Virus record (IMG/VR): IMGVR_UViG_3300046727_000402
Coordinates: 1-47,400 of that record
DNA length: 47,400 nt
Strand: one strand, 5' to 3'
DNA from: a virus
Shown here: positions 2,198 through 47,400 of the stretch, piece after piece
Layout: every line of letters starts with the position of its first letter
Numbering within the stretch: the first letter of the stretch is position 1
The notes under the pieces: model-generated
What the model was told of the DNA's origin: nothing
The model's database searches: none
The model's input: only the letters and a program-made list of their open reading frames with translations
Translations under genes and position numbers: made by a program

Positions 2198-4237
2198 ATG
2201 GCCCAGCGAATTATTTGGGGCGCCGGCCGCGAGGACGCCTTTAAAGACTACCTCGATCGCGAGATGCAACAGGCGCTCGCGGCGCGGAGCGCGGTCGAAC
2301 GCACCTGGATTCGCTGGCTCGAACAGTACCGCGCCCCCGCCAATCGGCCGCTCAAGTCGTTTCCGTTCGAAGGTGCGGCCAACTTCGAACTGCCACTCAC
2401 CGCGATCGATGTCGATCAGCTCTACGCCAAGTTCTTCCAGACGATCCACGCGCCGACCAACACCTGGACGCTCGAACCGCTCAATCCCGGCTGGGAAGAC
2501 GCTGCCAAACCGCTGCAAGACTTCCTCGAATGGCTCGATGGCGCCATGCTCCACATGGAACAGGTCAATAAACGCGCCCTCCTCGAACTCGTGAAGCTCG
2601 GCACGGCCATCTACAAAACCGGCTGGCTCTTCGAACGGCGCACCATCAAGACATACGACGATCAGGGGAAGACGCTCCGGGTCGAACGGACGATCAGCAA
2701 ACCCACCGTCGATCACGTCCGGCTCGCCGATTTCCTGATTCCTCCCTATGCCTACGAGATCGACCCCGATCTCCAGGGCGGCGCCCCCTGGATCGCTGAA
2801 CGGTTCCGCCGCGGCATCGATGCCCTGGAGTCCATTGCCGATAGCTCGGAACCCTATCTGCCGAATTACGGCCTGCTGGCGATCCAAAAACTCCGGCAAC
2901 AGATGGAGAACCGCGAAACCGATTATGATGCCGCCATCCAGGGCATGGACTACAACAAAGTCGGCATGGCCGGCCAAACCCTGCCGTTCGATACCAGCAC
3001 CAGCACGGTCCCGGAACCCGGCAAATCCAGCACGTTCTTCGTGGATAACGAGGTCGAGTGGTGGCAAATCCATGCCCGGTTCGCGACCCAAAAAGCCGGT
3101 GGCAGCCAGGATGACATCGTCGTGGAGTATCATCGCCCCACGCGCATGATGCTCCGGGCCATCTATCAGCCCTATCGGCATAGCAAACGGCCCTATGACG
3201 TCGCCCGCTTCTTCCCCGGCGAAGGCTTCTACGGCATCGGCGTCTGTGAACAGAAAGAGATGTTCCAACGGTCCGAATCCGATCTGTTCAATACCATGCA
3301 CGACAACACCCTGCTCTCGAACGCGGTCGGTATCGCCGCCAAACAGGGCAGCAATATCGGTCCCGGTGAGCCGATCTATCCCGGCAAGATCTGGATCACG
3401 GACGGCAACCCGCGCGATGAGCTGATGGCCTTCAATCTCAGCCAACCTTACCAGGGATTGGTCCAGATCCAAGGCATGGTCAACGAACTCGGCAAGCTGC
3501 GCACCGGCATCGGTGATCTCCAGAGCGGCAACATCAATGCGCTTCCGTCCCGGACGCCGGCCACCAGCGTCCAAGCCATGCTCGAAGAAGGCGCCCGCCG
3601 CCCCGATCTGACGCTCACCAATATCCGAGACTGCCTGAGCGGGGTGGGCCTCAAAACGCTGCAAAATGTCCAGCAATACTTGCAGCAACCCGGACTCGGT
3701 GCCGGCGGCGAGATCTACATGGACATCATGGTCAAGGTGCTCGGCCCCGAGGCCGCCGCCCCAGCGCTCCAAGCCTTAGCGCTGAGCCAGGACAGTATCG
3801 AACTTGGGCTCGGGGTGATGCTCACCGCCACGAGTGCCACCGCGAATAAAGAACTCGCCAAACAGAACCTCATGGCCTTGGTGCAGCTCCAAACCCAGAT
3901 CGGGCCGCCGATCTTGCAAGCGCTGACCCAGGCCATGCAGGCCCAGGGCACACCCGTGGGTCAGGCCGCCCTCGATTGGGCGCAGGGCATGGTCTTTCTG
4001 CAGAAACGCGTGCTCGAACAATCTGACATCCGGAACGTCCATGAGCTGGTTCCCACGATTCCCAAAGATCCTGGCCCACCGGCTGGCTTCCCGGCGCCTC
4101 CCCCAAGCCCCTACGGACCCGCCCCTGCCTTTCCACTGCTCGGCGGAGGAGGTGGCCCACCTCAAGGGCCTCCAGGAAGCTCCGGCATGGAAGCACTACC
4201 GAGCCCTGCTGGAGCGGGTGGCCCAGGCGGAATATGA
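2198..4237 (+). CDS. Portal protein
   Basis: 679 residues. It forms the dodecameric ring at one capsid vertex that is the docking site for terminase and the channel for DNA. Recognisable portal features include the N-terminal AVERTWIRWLEQYR helix, a middle region with GEGFYGIGVCEQKEMFQ and the SLFNTM-like segment before a long helical stem, and the conserved GDLQSGNINALPSRTPATSVQAM region near residues 440-465. The length fits portal proteins of short-tailed phages. The last ~60 residues are Pro/Gly-rich (APPPSPYGPAP, GGGGGPP) and overlap another gene in a second frame. The start follows the previous stop directly. Confidence 0.92.
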   Translation: MAQRIIWGAGREDAFKDYLDREMQQALAARSAVERTWIRWLEQYRAPANRPLKSFPFEGAANFELPLTAIDVDQLYAKFFQTIHAPTNTWTLEPLNPGWEDAAKPLQDFLEWLDGAMLHMEQVNKRALLELVKLGTAIYKTGWLFERRTIKTYDDQGKTLRVERTISKPTVDHVRLADFLIPPYAYEIDPDLQGGAPWIAERFRRGIDALESIADSSEPYLPNYGLLAIQKLRQQMENRETDYDAAIQGMDYNKVGMAGQTLPFDTSTSTVPEPGKSSTFFVDNEVEWWQIHARFATQKAGGSQDDIVVEYHRPTRMMLRAIYQPYRHSKRPYDVARFFPGEGFYGIGVCEQKEMFQRSESDLFNTMHDNTLLSNAVGIAAKQGSNIGPGEPIYPGKIWITDGNPRDELMAFNLSQPYQGLVQIQGMVNELGKLRTGIGDLQSGNINALPSRTPATSVQAMLEEGARRPDLTLTNIRDCLSGVGLKTLQNVQQYLQQPGLGAGGEIYMDIMVKVLGPEAAAPALQALALSQDSIELGLGVMLTATSATANKELAKQNLMALVQLQTQIGPPILQALTQAMQAQGTPVGQAALDWAQGMVFLQKRVLEQSDIRNVHELVPTIPKDPGPPAGFPAPPPSPYGPAPAFPLLGGGGGPPQGPPGSSGMEALPSPAGAGGPGGI

Positions 4238-4493
4238 CCAGCTCGCCACCCCGCTCGGGGTGAAACGCTATTGGTTCCAATGCGGCGCCTATCAGTCGGC
4301 CCGCCGCCATGTCGATCTCGTGGACGCCTTACTGCTCAAATGGGAGGACCATGTCAACCGATCCCAACAGTCCCGCGACGCCCAACGGGACACCCACGCC
4401 AGCCTCTTCTACGGCACCAACCTCTGGGACACCTGGCGGAACAGCACCACCGAACGGAACGGTGCCGACACCGGCCGTTCCCGTCACCCCTGA
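4041..4493 (+). CDS. Small helical protein overlapping the portal 3' end and the scaffold 5' end
   Basis: 150 residues if begun at the ATG at 4041. The credible part runs from about residue 35: AEEVAHLKGLQEAPAWKH, then helices up to LVDALLLKWED. This resembles short phage proteins lying between portal and scaffold genes. The first ~200 bases overlap the portal in another frame, and the last 143 overlap the scaffold-like gene. An alternative GTG start at 4152 follows a strong GGAGGAGG sequence. The true start is uncertain; function unknown. Confidence 0.6.
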   Translation: MSWFPRFPKILAHRLASRRLPQAPTDPPLPFHCSAEEVAHLKGLQEAPAWKHYRALLERVAQAEYDQLATPLGVKRYWFQCGAYQSARRHVDLVDALLLKWEDHVNRSQQSRDAQRDTHASLFYGTNLWDTWRNSTTERNGADTGRSRHP

Positions 4494-44572: not shown

Positions 44573-44628
44573 TCCCACCGCCGTCCCTAGAGTTCCAGAC
44601 CGGCGACGCCCAGTGGCCCGCCGCATGA
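44569..44628 (+). pseudogene. Remnant of the large terminase N-terminus
   Basis: A GTG overlapping the previous stop opens a 19-codon frame that contains LEFQTGDAQW, identical to residues 5-14 of the intact large terminase, then stops after PAA. Its stop overlaps the ATG of the methyltransferase gene. The remnant is best explained as the old start of the terminase gene, cut off when the methyltransferase cassette entered; it now could serve to couple translation to the cassette. Confidence 0.85.
44588..44616 (+). repeat. 29-bp direct repeat, left border of the inserted cassette
   Basis: 27 of 29 bases match 46519-46547 (two transitions). The right copy is the beginning of the intact terminase gene. 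The 1,931-bp spacing covers the methyltransferase gene with its nested frames and two Cys-rich genes. Confidence 0.9.
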
Positions 44629-45929
44629 AAATCGGCTCGCTCTTCGCTGGCATCGGTGGCTTCGACCTTGCCGCCCGCTGGATGGGCTGGGAGACGGCCT
44701 GGTTTTCCGAGATCGACCCGTACGCCTCAGCGGTCCTTGCCAAACACTGGCCTGGAGTGCCGAATCACGGCGACATCACACGCATAGATTTTACGCAGGT
44801 TGAGCCGGTTGATCTCCTCTGTGGGGGATTCCCCTGTCAGGACATAAGCAATGCCGGCAAACGCGCGGGCATTACCGGAACACGAAGCGGTCTCTGGACC
44901 CATTTCGCCCGAGCCATTCGCGACTTACGACCCCGCTACGTCGTCGTGGAGAACGTCGCAGCGTTGCTTGGGCGGGGAATGGGACGAGTTCTCGGCGACC
45001 TTTCCGCGCTCGGGTACGATGCGGAATGGTCGGTGTTATCTGCGGCCGATGTCGGCGCTCCTCACCTCCGCGCCCGCATCTGGATTGTGGCCTATCCCAC
45101 GCACGACGGGACTGGATGGGGGCAGCAACTCACGGAACGCCGCCAAGGCGCGGGGATACTGGCCCACGCCGGACGTAGGGGTCTTCAACTTGACCGAATC
45201 CTTCGAGAGTTGGGTCGCACGCTCGGCACGAATGGGGGCGCGACACCAGCACGCACCGTTCCGACCACCGCTGGCGCTCGCAGTGAGGATATGGAGCACG
45301 CCGCGGGCGAGCGACGGGGAGAAGGGCGGACCGAATCAGAGTTTTGGAGCGGGTGGGACGCCCCTACCCGCGCAGGTTGGTGGGACACTGAACCCCCGGT
45401 GGGTCGAGTGGTTGCAAGGCTATCCGATTGGCTGGACCGACTTGACTTAGAGCTATGCCTTAGAGTAGTATGTAGGTATGCCAACCACGCCCATTGCAGT
45501 CCCGCCCAAGCCGTGCGCTTGGTGCGGGAAACTTATGGAGAGGCCGAGGTTTTCCAATGGAGAACTCGAAGCCCCAACCATGTTTGCGCGCCGCAAATTC
45601 TGCTCCCTATCCTGCGCCGCCTCGAAACCAAGTGTCAAGAAAAATTCGATGCACAAGAGGGCCCGGAAACTACGACGGGCATACTGCGAGGCGTGTCTCA
45701 TAACGAAGCGGCTTCAGGCGCACCACCTAGATCAAGATCCCACGAACAATGCGCTGAACAATATCCAGACTCTCTGCAAGAGCTGTCACGATTTCTGGCA
45801 CAATACTGCGCGCAGGCTTGGGCGGAAGGTCGCGGGGCGTATGCCGCAGATCGTGTAAGTCGCCTTAGAGGACTCGGTAACGCCATCGTTCCGGCGTGCG
45901 CGTACCGCATCTTCCAGACCCTAGGCTGA
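44625..45929 (+). CDS. DNA (cytosine-5) methyltransferase, interrupted by an HNH gene in frame
   Basis: 434 residues from ATG 44625. It would transfer methyl groups from SAM to cytosine C5 in a short target and may protect phage DNA from restriction. Motif I LFAGIGGF (6-13), catalytic Cys 71 in GGFPCQD, ENV (109-111), and HLRAR (147-151, the usual QRRxR region) are present. The variable region runs to WWDTEPPVGRVVARLSDWLDRL (near 260-281). Motifs IX/X RLRGLGNAIVP (413-423) come only after ~130 residues encoded by the HNH insertion read in this frame. Whether the enlarged protein still works is doubtful. Confidence 0.85.
   Translation: MKIGSLFAGIGGFDLAARWMGWETAWFSEIDPYASAVLAKHWPGVPNHGDITRIDFTQVEPVDLLCGGFPCQDISNAGKRAGITGTRSGLWTHFARAIRDLRPRYVVVENVAALLGRGMGRVLGDLSALGYDAEWSVLSAADVGAPHLRARIWIVAYPTHDGTGWGQQLTERRQGAGILAHAGRRGLQLDRILRELGRTLGTNGGATPARTVPTTAGARSEDMEHAAGERRGEGRTESEFWSGWDAPTRAGWWDTEPPVGRVVARLSDWLDRLDLELCLRVVCRYANHAHCSPAQAVRLVRETYGEAEVFQWRTRSPNHVCAPQILLPILRRLETKCQEKFDAQEGPETTTGILRGVSHNEAASGAPPRSRSHEQCAEQYPDSLQELSRFLAQYCAQAWAEGRGAYAADRVSRLRGLGNAIVPACAYRIFQTLG
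44851..45450 (+). CDS. Overprinted phage protein in the +1 frame of the methyltransferase gene
   Basis: 199 residues entirely inside the methyltransferase gene. It carries all landmarks of a separate phage protein family: SPEPFATYDPATSSWRTSQ, FSATFPRSGTMRNGRCY, SGLWPIP and YWPTPDV, STPRASDGEKGGPN, and the C-terminal GGTLNPRWVEWLQGYPIGWT. Members of this family often lie beside phage cytosine methyltransferases and have no known function. The frame closes 8 bases before the HNH insertion repeat. That both frames match conserved families over ~600 bases argues for true dual coding. Confidence 0.75.
   Translation: MPANARALPEHEAVSGPISPEPFATYDPATSSWRTSQRCLGGEWDEFSATFPRSGTMRNGRCYLRPMSALLTSAPASGLWPIPRTTGLDGGSNSRNAAKARGYWPTPDVGVFNLTESFESWVARSARMGARHQHAPFRPPLALAVRIWSTPRASDGEKGGPNQSFGAGGTPLPAQVGGTLNPRWVEWLQGYPIGWTDLT
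45458..45870 (+). mobile_element. HNH endonuclease insertion flanked by 8-bp repeats
   Basis: CCTTAGAG at 45458-45465 and 45863-45870 are exactly 405 bases (135 codons) apart and lie between the methyltransferase's DRL and RLRGLGN codons. Removing one repeat unit restores a continuous methyltransferase frame with CLRGLGNAIVP. Only 12 bases separate the left repeat from the HNH start codon and 4 bases separate its stop from the right repeat, leaving no room for a self-splicing intron. Confidence 0.75.
45478..45858 (+). CDS. HNH endonuclease
   Basis: 126 residues. An N-terminal zinc pair set CAWC (13-16) and CSLSC (42-46) leads to CEAC (70-73) and the catalytic HNH core LQAHHLDQDPTNNALNN with His 82/83 and Asn 91, followed by LCKSCHDFWH with metal His 104. 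HNH enzymes nick or cut DNA; this one lies in a different frame within the methyltransferase gene and is probably a free-standing mobile endonuclease that spreads by cutting uninterrupted copies of its site. Confidence 0.9.
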   Translation: MPTTPIAVPPKPCAWCGKLMERPRFSNGELEAPTMFARRKFCSLSCAASKPSVKKNSMHKRARKLRRAYCEACLITKRLQAHHLDQDPTNNALNNIQTLCKSCHDFWHNTARRLGRKVAGRMPQIV

Positions 45930-46509: not shown

Positions 46510-47400
46510 CGGACACCTTAGAGTTTCAAACCGGCGACGCCCAGTGGAAAGCCCTTCGCGAGAAGGGCCTGAGTGATCTCTTCTTCTTCGGCAGCGTGAT
46601 CTTAGGGTACGGCGAGCTGGTGCCCATGCGGGAAAGCGCGCATCGCCTGCTGTGCCGGTTCGTGGAGCGGAGCACGGGCGTCCCCGTCTTAGATCAAGCC
46701 TGGGTCCGCAAAGTCGAGATGCCGCGCGGCACCGGCAAGACGACGACGATCACGCAAGCCTACATCATTCAACGCCTCTGCCAAGACCCGAATCTCTCGA
46801 TCCTGCTCTGTAACGAGAAAGAAGCCAACGCCAAGGCGATGCTCACGGCGATCAAGTCCCAGTTCATGACCAATGAGCTATTCCGGAAACTCTATCCCGA
46901 AGTCATTCCCGACGACTTCCACCTCCAACTCTGGTCTGCCACCCAGATTAACTGCAAACGCACCACCGGCCGCAAAGAACCAAGCATTTTAGTGATCGGC
47001 GAAGGCGGTACCGTCACCGGCATGCATCCCGATGAGATCTTTGTCGATGACCTCATCTCCCGCGAGTTGATGGAGAGCATGCGGAGCGGCAGCGTCGCTG
47101 ACCTCATCGGCCAGATCAACCGCTGGATTCATCAACTCGTCCCGTTGTTGTCCGGGCATCCCAAACGCTGTATCACCTTCATCGGGACCCGCTGGTGGCA
47201 CAACGACTGCTACGAACACATCGAGGAGAGCTTCGGCTATGGCCACGACCCCCAACGCTTCCTGCTCAAATGCACGCTGCCCGATGGGGCGGTCCAACGG
47301 CTACCGGTGTACTGCGTGGGCGACTTGGCGGTGTTTCGTCGCGCCGCGATTGAAGATGGACAACCGGCGTTCCAAGAACTCGATCACCAGAAATACAGCC
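46506..47400 (+). CDS. terL: Large terminase subunit, N-terminal part (continues at base 1/128)
   Basis: Residues 1-298 of a 550-residue packaging motor. The ATPase half is complete: Walker A PRGTGKT (73-79), Walker B EIFVDD (177-182) and the coupling motif FIGTRW (225-230). The nuclease half is at 128-885. The ATG overlaps the preceding stop (ATGA). Residues 5-14 also occur, as a broken copy, ahead of the methyltransferase gene at 44587. Confidence 0.97.
   Translation, partial: MTDTLEFQTGDAQWKALREKGLSDLFFFGSVILGYGELVPMRESAHRLLCRFVERSTGVPVLDQAWVRKVEMPRGTGKTTTITQAYIIQRLCQDPNLSILLCNEKEANAKAMLTAIKSQFMTNELFRKLYPEVIPDDFHLQLWSATQINCKRTTGRKEPSILVIGEGGTVTGMHPDEIFVDDLISRELMESMRSGSVADLIGQINRWIHQLVPLLSGHPKRCITFIGTRWWHNDCYEHIEESFGYGHDPQRFLLKCTLPDGAVQRLPVYCVGDLAVFRRAAIEDGQPAFQELDHQKYS
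46519..46547 (+). repeat. 29-bp direct repeat, right border of the inserted cassette
   Basis: Matches 44588-44616 at 27 of 29 positions; here it is part of the functional terminase start. It begins inside a CCTTAGAG octamer (46516-46523), the same octamer that borders the HNH insertion. Confidence 0.9.
47274..47400. repeat. Terminal overlap, right copy
   Basis: Identical to positions 1-127; joins the two ends of the circle inside the large terminase gene. Confidence 0.95.

Follow-up and report, generated by a model that had tools for sequence, protein, structure and literature searches.

HNH homing endonucleases such as I-HmuI are either intron encoded or free standing. In the literature on overlapping HNH and methyltransferase genes, we found the following reports relevant: the study of the ShiLan domain, a hidden HNH in the gp65 methylase of mycobacteriophage ShiLan, which includes Pacc40 gp60 as a further case (Arsenault, Gosselin, and Gogarten 2025, PMC11855218), the predecessor of this study, and a note on Applejack gp54/gp55 (PMC12613952).

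The stretch of DNA analyzed here, referred to as the window, is a virus record of 47,400 bases in which an HNH gene lies within a DNA methyltransferase gene, the host gene. A hidden HNH in a methylase is of the published (ShiLan) kind, from which the window differs in host type, phase, and HNH sequence. (i) In ShiLan-type elements as well as in the window, an HNH gene lies out of frame within a phage DNA methylase gene whose own frame is open, and the family of the window shares with them a conserved insertion site, a scattered distribution, and no detected intron or intein. (ii) The ShiLan host carries a DPPY motif and the Pacc40 record states a DNA methylase N-4, whereas the window host is a C5 methyltransferase. 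(iii) The hidden ORF lies in the +2 frame relative to the host (host+2) in ShiLan and Pacc40 but in the host+1 frame in the window and in every case of its family. (iv) Comparison of the ShiLan and window HNH proteins gave a BLASTP E value of 0.32 and a marginal profile comparison (hhalign) probability of 38%, suggesting that they are at most remotely related. (v) According to PMC11855218, no ribosome binding site is detectable for ShiLan, whereas Shine-Dalgarno (SD)-like sites are present in half of the HNH family studied here.

A tblastn search with the window HNH returned three phage records only, namely, Komagataeibacter phages phiKX1 and phiKX2 and Staphylococcus phage CUB-EPI_14, with HNH proteins that are 38 to 44% identical to that of the window. 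In phiKX1 and CUB-EPI_14, the HNH lies host+1 within a methyltransferase ORF that stays open, as in the window, and was left unannotated in the GenBank records; the insertion site in CUB-EPI_14 differs from that of the window. The window HNH resembles I-HmuI-like enzymes in being an HNH/zinc nuclease, and homing behavior would be expected by analogy; unlike these enzymes, it shares its DNA with host coding sequence.

The methyltransferase gene and its insertion

The host ORF (positions 44628 to 45929, plus strand) encodes 433 amino acids from the ATG at 44628, or 438 from the alternative GTG start at 44613 in the ORF listing. It was identified as a C5-cytosine DNA methyltransferase by matches to PF00145 (E value of 7.5e-44), phrog_363 (2.7e-85), and TIGR00675, and the signatures FAGIGG, PCQ, and ENV as well as motif X (GNAIVP) are all contained in this single ORF. 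The phrog_363 match covers residues 2 to 435, yet it uses profile positions 51 to 310 alone, i.e., the profile skips an insert. In this part of the gene, the HNH endonuclease gene (45478 to 45858, plus strand) encodes 126 amino acids in the host+1 frame and matches phrog_1271 (E value of 5.7e-13) and PF01844 (6.5e-4); the latter match is slightly under the curated cutoff, which the Pfam HNH exceeds in the related loci L067 and L001. The residues C13/C16/C42/C46, C70/C73, H82H83, N91, C100/C103, H104, and H108 are intact in the window, and the catalytic and zinc residues are invariant in the alignment. A search for solved relatives returned generic HNH matches only (IscB, DotN, and McrA). The methyltransferase frame contains no stop across the HNH ORF and is open through the entire insert, in agreement with the initial annotation, according to which an HNH gene is contained in a methyltransferase gene without breaking its frame.

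To delimit the insert, 80 methyltransferase relatives were retrieved with the part upstream of it, i.e., HNH was not used as a query. Most of them lack the insert: they carry WW..EPDVGRVAHGVPARVDRLRGLGNAVVPQ, with DRL followed directly by RGLGN, and such empty sites read VGRVAHGVPARVDRL immediately before RGLGNAVVP. In the window, WLDRL is followed by 141 residues and then by RGLGNAIVP. Since most relatives join DRL directly to RGLGN, the HNH-bearing stretch is, by this sequence comparison, an insertion relative to most related methyltransferases. From the empty sites and the flank positions, our best estimate is a stretch of 423 bp or 141 host codons (45444 to 45866, plus strand). An alternative size of 405 bp would leave six residues (DLELCL) that are present in no relative seen, and 423 bp was preferred. 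The proposal that an HNH gene was inserted in a conserved methyltransferase stretch, for which a comparison with uninterrupted relatives had been suggested, is thus confirmed by these relatives. The insertion site corresponds to one conserved motif across diverse methyltransferases.

The initial annotation had also proposed an 8-bp target duplication, which had to be abandoned. The two copies of GCCTTAGAG (45457 to 45465 and 45862 to 45870, both plus strand) are 405 bp apart; the right copy forms codons of the conserved RLRG on the motif X side, and the left octamer lies within the 5' end of the element itself, as aligned by eye with AWLDRSG...PHKLLLAYA of L067, L060, and L092. The local-alignment score of this repeat (18, compared with a shuffled 95th percentile of 20) is not above chance, and further 9- to 10-mer repeats are present in the same 1.4 kb. 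A role of the CCTTAGAG octamer as a target-site duplication is ruled out by the shuffles and the empty sites. Relatives lacking the octamer, which had been named as counterevidence, do exist; they dispose of the octamer and leave the insertion itself standing. A copy of the flank at the element end, as reported for ShiLan (PMC11855218), was found in some relatives: in L014, L018, and L092, the site is duplicated imperfectly but over a greater length at both element ends (25 to 35 bp, 71 to 80% identity), and at the homologous motif the similarity between element start and 3' flank is higher than the 95th percentile of shuffles.

Two further repeats were observed. A conserved inverted repeat, CATAAGC...GCTTATG, was seen by eye just 5' of the HNH start in L067 (3498 to 3530), L060, and L092. 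In the window, a 32-bp direct repeat (44585 to 44616 and 46516 to 46547; 91% identical) places a copy of the 5' end of terL, the terminase large-subunit gene, upstream of the methyltransferase, which would fit insertion of a 1.93-kb methyltransferase cassette next to terL.

Constant phase and selection on two frames

A first HNH scan of viral contigs returned one remote relative, and only 6 loci were obtained when genomes were scanned with an early alignment of HNH proteins. Further loci came from HNH profile scans and from the HNH-independent methyltransferase scan, and all were host+1. With a sharper HNH profile, 291 relatives were found in viral contigs; the best 80 of these 291 were taken and joined with the earlier loci, resulting in 88 loci, of which 74 are distinct. 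All 88 were nested host+1 with a frame that is open across the HNH domain, and the host+2 frame contained stops in all but a few of them. The same was observed in an earlier, overlapping set that included AT-rich hosts (19 of 19 loci nested host+1), whereas more distant HNH relatives that are not nested have stops in the corresponding host+1 frame. The HNH family is thus much larger than the published hidden-HNH cases. Distant HNH relatives were also found nested host+1 in other open ORFs, namely, UDG-DNA polymerase A fusions (L024, 958 to 3660; L038, 1101 to 3938) and an ORF with UvrD-helicase domains (L035, 972 to 3818). Because these relatives reside in DNA polymerase A and helicase ORFs, the HNH gene is better regarded as a mobile element than as part of a methyltransferase.

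The same data bear on the best surviving alternative, in which the HNH protein is the restriction partner of the methyltransferase and the locus a compressed restriction-modification pair with the nuclease gene overlapping the methylase. HNH nucleases do act as type II restriction enzymes, and the family is constantly associated with methyltransferase-region ORFs. However, the HNH gene is missing from many methyltransferases closely related to that of the host, a single conserved motif serves as insertion site in diverse methyltransferases, and the distant HNH relatives lie in polymerase and helicase ORFs, so that we consider such a pair unlikely.

Further cases of out-of-frame nesting were noted. 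A different HNH-like family, with no Pfam match, is represented by L085 (3240 to 3584) and L109 (3246 to 3659), where it is likewise nested host+1 within ORFs of C5 methyltransferases, close to the insertion site described above. In Gordonia phage Ailee (L013), an endonuclease gene (2877 to 3275) is host+1 within a C5 methyltransferase frame (2435 to 4309) that is open throughout; its record nevertheless annotates a joined coding sequence, and the endonuclease is labeled LAGLIDADG in one record and HNH in another.

The openness of the host frame through HNH is not due to chance. When the window HNH protein was recoded synonymously, the methyltransferase frame was open in 0.03 to 0.25% of the trials (P of 0.0003 to 0.0025), with 5.4 to 6.8 host-frame stops expected; for four AT-rich family members, it was open in 0 of 4,000 recodings. 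In the host+1 phase, each host stop corresponds to an HNH codon NNT before AA, AG, or GA. As a change of the final T to C is always synonymous, the host frame can stay open without any change to the HNH protein. T-ending HNH codons before AA, AG, or GA amounted to 0 of 914 in the family, compared with 1,491 of 3,230 C- or T-ending codons elsewhere; the respective numbers in the window are 0 of 13 and 21 of 48.

Amino acid conservation of the host frame between the window and distant relatives was weak (BLOSUM z of -0.4 to 1.6) and not clearly above the null, whereas a group of eight members had a z of 5.2, above the null. Because conservation was too weak for the window alone, we used 21 close pairs from the family and classified changes according to their effect in each frame; the resulting signal of dual-frame selection derives from family members other than the window. 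Changes that alter HNH and are silent in the host (NS/SS) reached 0.14 of the neutral ratio, compared with 0.51 for changes that alter the host and are silent in HNH (SN/SS). To remove mutation bias, a second test was limited to HNH-silent C/T differences at third positions. Such differences were found at 48 of 125 host-silent sites (38%), 64 of 506 host-altering sites (12.6%), and 0 of 168 stop-making sites (Fisher p of 4e-10 for host-silent versus host-altering sites). Since host-altering C/T changes are rarer than host-silent ones, the host-frame stretch is under selection at the amino acid level. Across the family there is thus purifying selection on both frames, stronger on the HNH frame and weaker on the host frame.

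That host-frame amino acid changes are likewise selected against would also be expected if the extra residues were the functional gain, i.e., a new methyltransferase domain, with the HNH frame as a relic or by-product. We find this very improbable, since constraint is stronger on the HNH frame than on the host frame, the HNH and zinc residues are invariant, and methyltransferases that lack the stretch are frequently found.

Probable mobility and proposed expression of the HNH gene

In the methyltransferase tree, the insert is distributed disjunctly: at least 5 changes between presence and absence are forced by well-supported branches. L067, with the insert, adjoins L078, without it, on end branches of 0.016 and 0.020; their N-terminal parts are nearly identical, and the DNA to the left and right of the insert can be aligned between the two. 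Methyltransferases that are almost the same but differ in the presence of the insert support, at the sequence level, mobility of the HNH element. The suggestion of a minimal mobile unit is supported by the scattered distribution, the pair L067/L078, and the distant relatives in other genes.

In 64 of 70 loci, an upstream in-frame stop lies no more than 45 nt from the HNH start (median of 6 nt). SD-like sequences precede 35 of 70 HNH starts, compared with 9.9 expected, where 35 is an upper figure because the choice of starts favored SD sequences. The window HNH start has a weak SD, and the upstream +1-frame stop is located at 45448 to 45450, 27 nt before the HNH ATG. Stop spacing and SD-like sites fit a separate initiation of HNH translation, either SD dependent or by reinitiation. 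These data also bear on a programmed frameshift that would produce a methyltransferase-HNH fusion, with the constant phase reflecting the slip. The phase is indeed always +1, but an in-frame stop directly precedes the HNH start in most loci, so that there is little or no place to slip, and HNH has its own ATG, often with an SD-like sequence; we give such a fusion very little credence. Finally, excision of the insert as a self-splicing intron or an unusual intein, prior to methyltransferase activity, would account for a conserved insertion site, as introns and inteins choose such sites, but we regard it as the least probable reading, since the 378-bp coding part of the HNH ORF nearly fills the 423-bp insert, the element has no Rfam match at an E value of ≤1, Pfam detects no intein domain (DNA_methylase is the only match in the host ORF), and RNA splicing would not require the observed amino acid selection on the host frame. 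The earlier remark that there is no room for an intron agrees with the coding share and the Rfam result.

We consider it likely that the window contains a mobile gene for an HNH homing endonuclease that has its own start and is free of intron and intein, within a C5 methyltransferase gene whose frame reads through it. The HNH gene lies between the end of the target-recognition region and motif X. The -1 frame of the element is stop free and in phase with the host, so that the host ORF continues through it and is longer by approximately 141 residues. HNH would be translated from its own ATG, either by means of an SD sequence or by reinitiation after the +1-frame stop just upstream. We infer from the sequence patterns that homing proceeds by cutting of the empty site: the putative HNH enzyme would cleave insert-free methyltransferase alleles, into which the element would then be copied by repair. 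The enlarged methyltransferase presumably stays active, with the insert forming a tolerated loop.

An overlapping phrog_1008-type ORF

Just upstream of the HNH gene and in the same +1 frame, the window contains a further ORF (44851 to 45450, plus strand) that ends with WVEWLQGYPIGWTDLT and a stop codon. It matches phrog_1008 (E value of 5.4e-29), and its openness has a P of 0.008; a conserved motif and codon bias are found in relatives. In approximately 55 empty-site relatives (among L051 to L130), the +1 frame lacks stops along most of the C-terminal half of the methyltransferase and contains the motif NPTWVEWLMGFPxGWT. The host codon that requires a final T for the Met of this motif is NAT in 49 of 49 cases, compared with a NAT share of 31.5% in the remainder of these genes (1,160 NAC and 534 NAT). 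Judged from these patterns, the phrog_1008-like ORF looks truly coding and would form a widespread dual-coded pair with the C5 methyltransferase, of which we found no description.

In 22 of the 74 distinct loci (within L133 to L210), the open host ORF that passes through HNH is of the phrog_1008 type, and the C5 ORF ends upstream of HNH, 50 to 95 nt away in most of them. As the C5 ORF ends before HNH in these loci, the C5 gene does not remain complete in every case. In the 22 loci, the phrog_1008-type ORF crosses the element into motif X (GNGQVP), an arrangement that resembles a split two-part methyltransferase. M.AquI is a two-subunit C5 methyltransferase, and the phrog_1008-type ORF could similarly act as a separate target-recognition/motif X part.

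Taken together, we lean towards a broader reading, albeit with less assurance than for the mobile element itself, in which the closer members of this widespread HNH family occur only as frame-nested genes, with a second frame that is stop free, constrained in its amino acids, and contributes to the host protein. The phase would always be the single one that is free of cost, and the element would enter loci in which the host gene is already overlapped by another conserved ORF of the same direction. Mobile genes usually leave the host gene unharmed through splicing or through an intergenic position; the present family would achieve this by coding, in that the second frame of the element is kept readable and is itself selected. 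A few cases in mycobacteriophage methylases would thereby become a general and testable strategy, for whose constant host+1 phase the genetic code offers a simple reason, and the data suggest that annotation pipelines miss many frame-nested genes of this kind.
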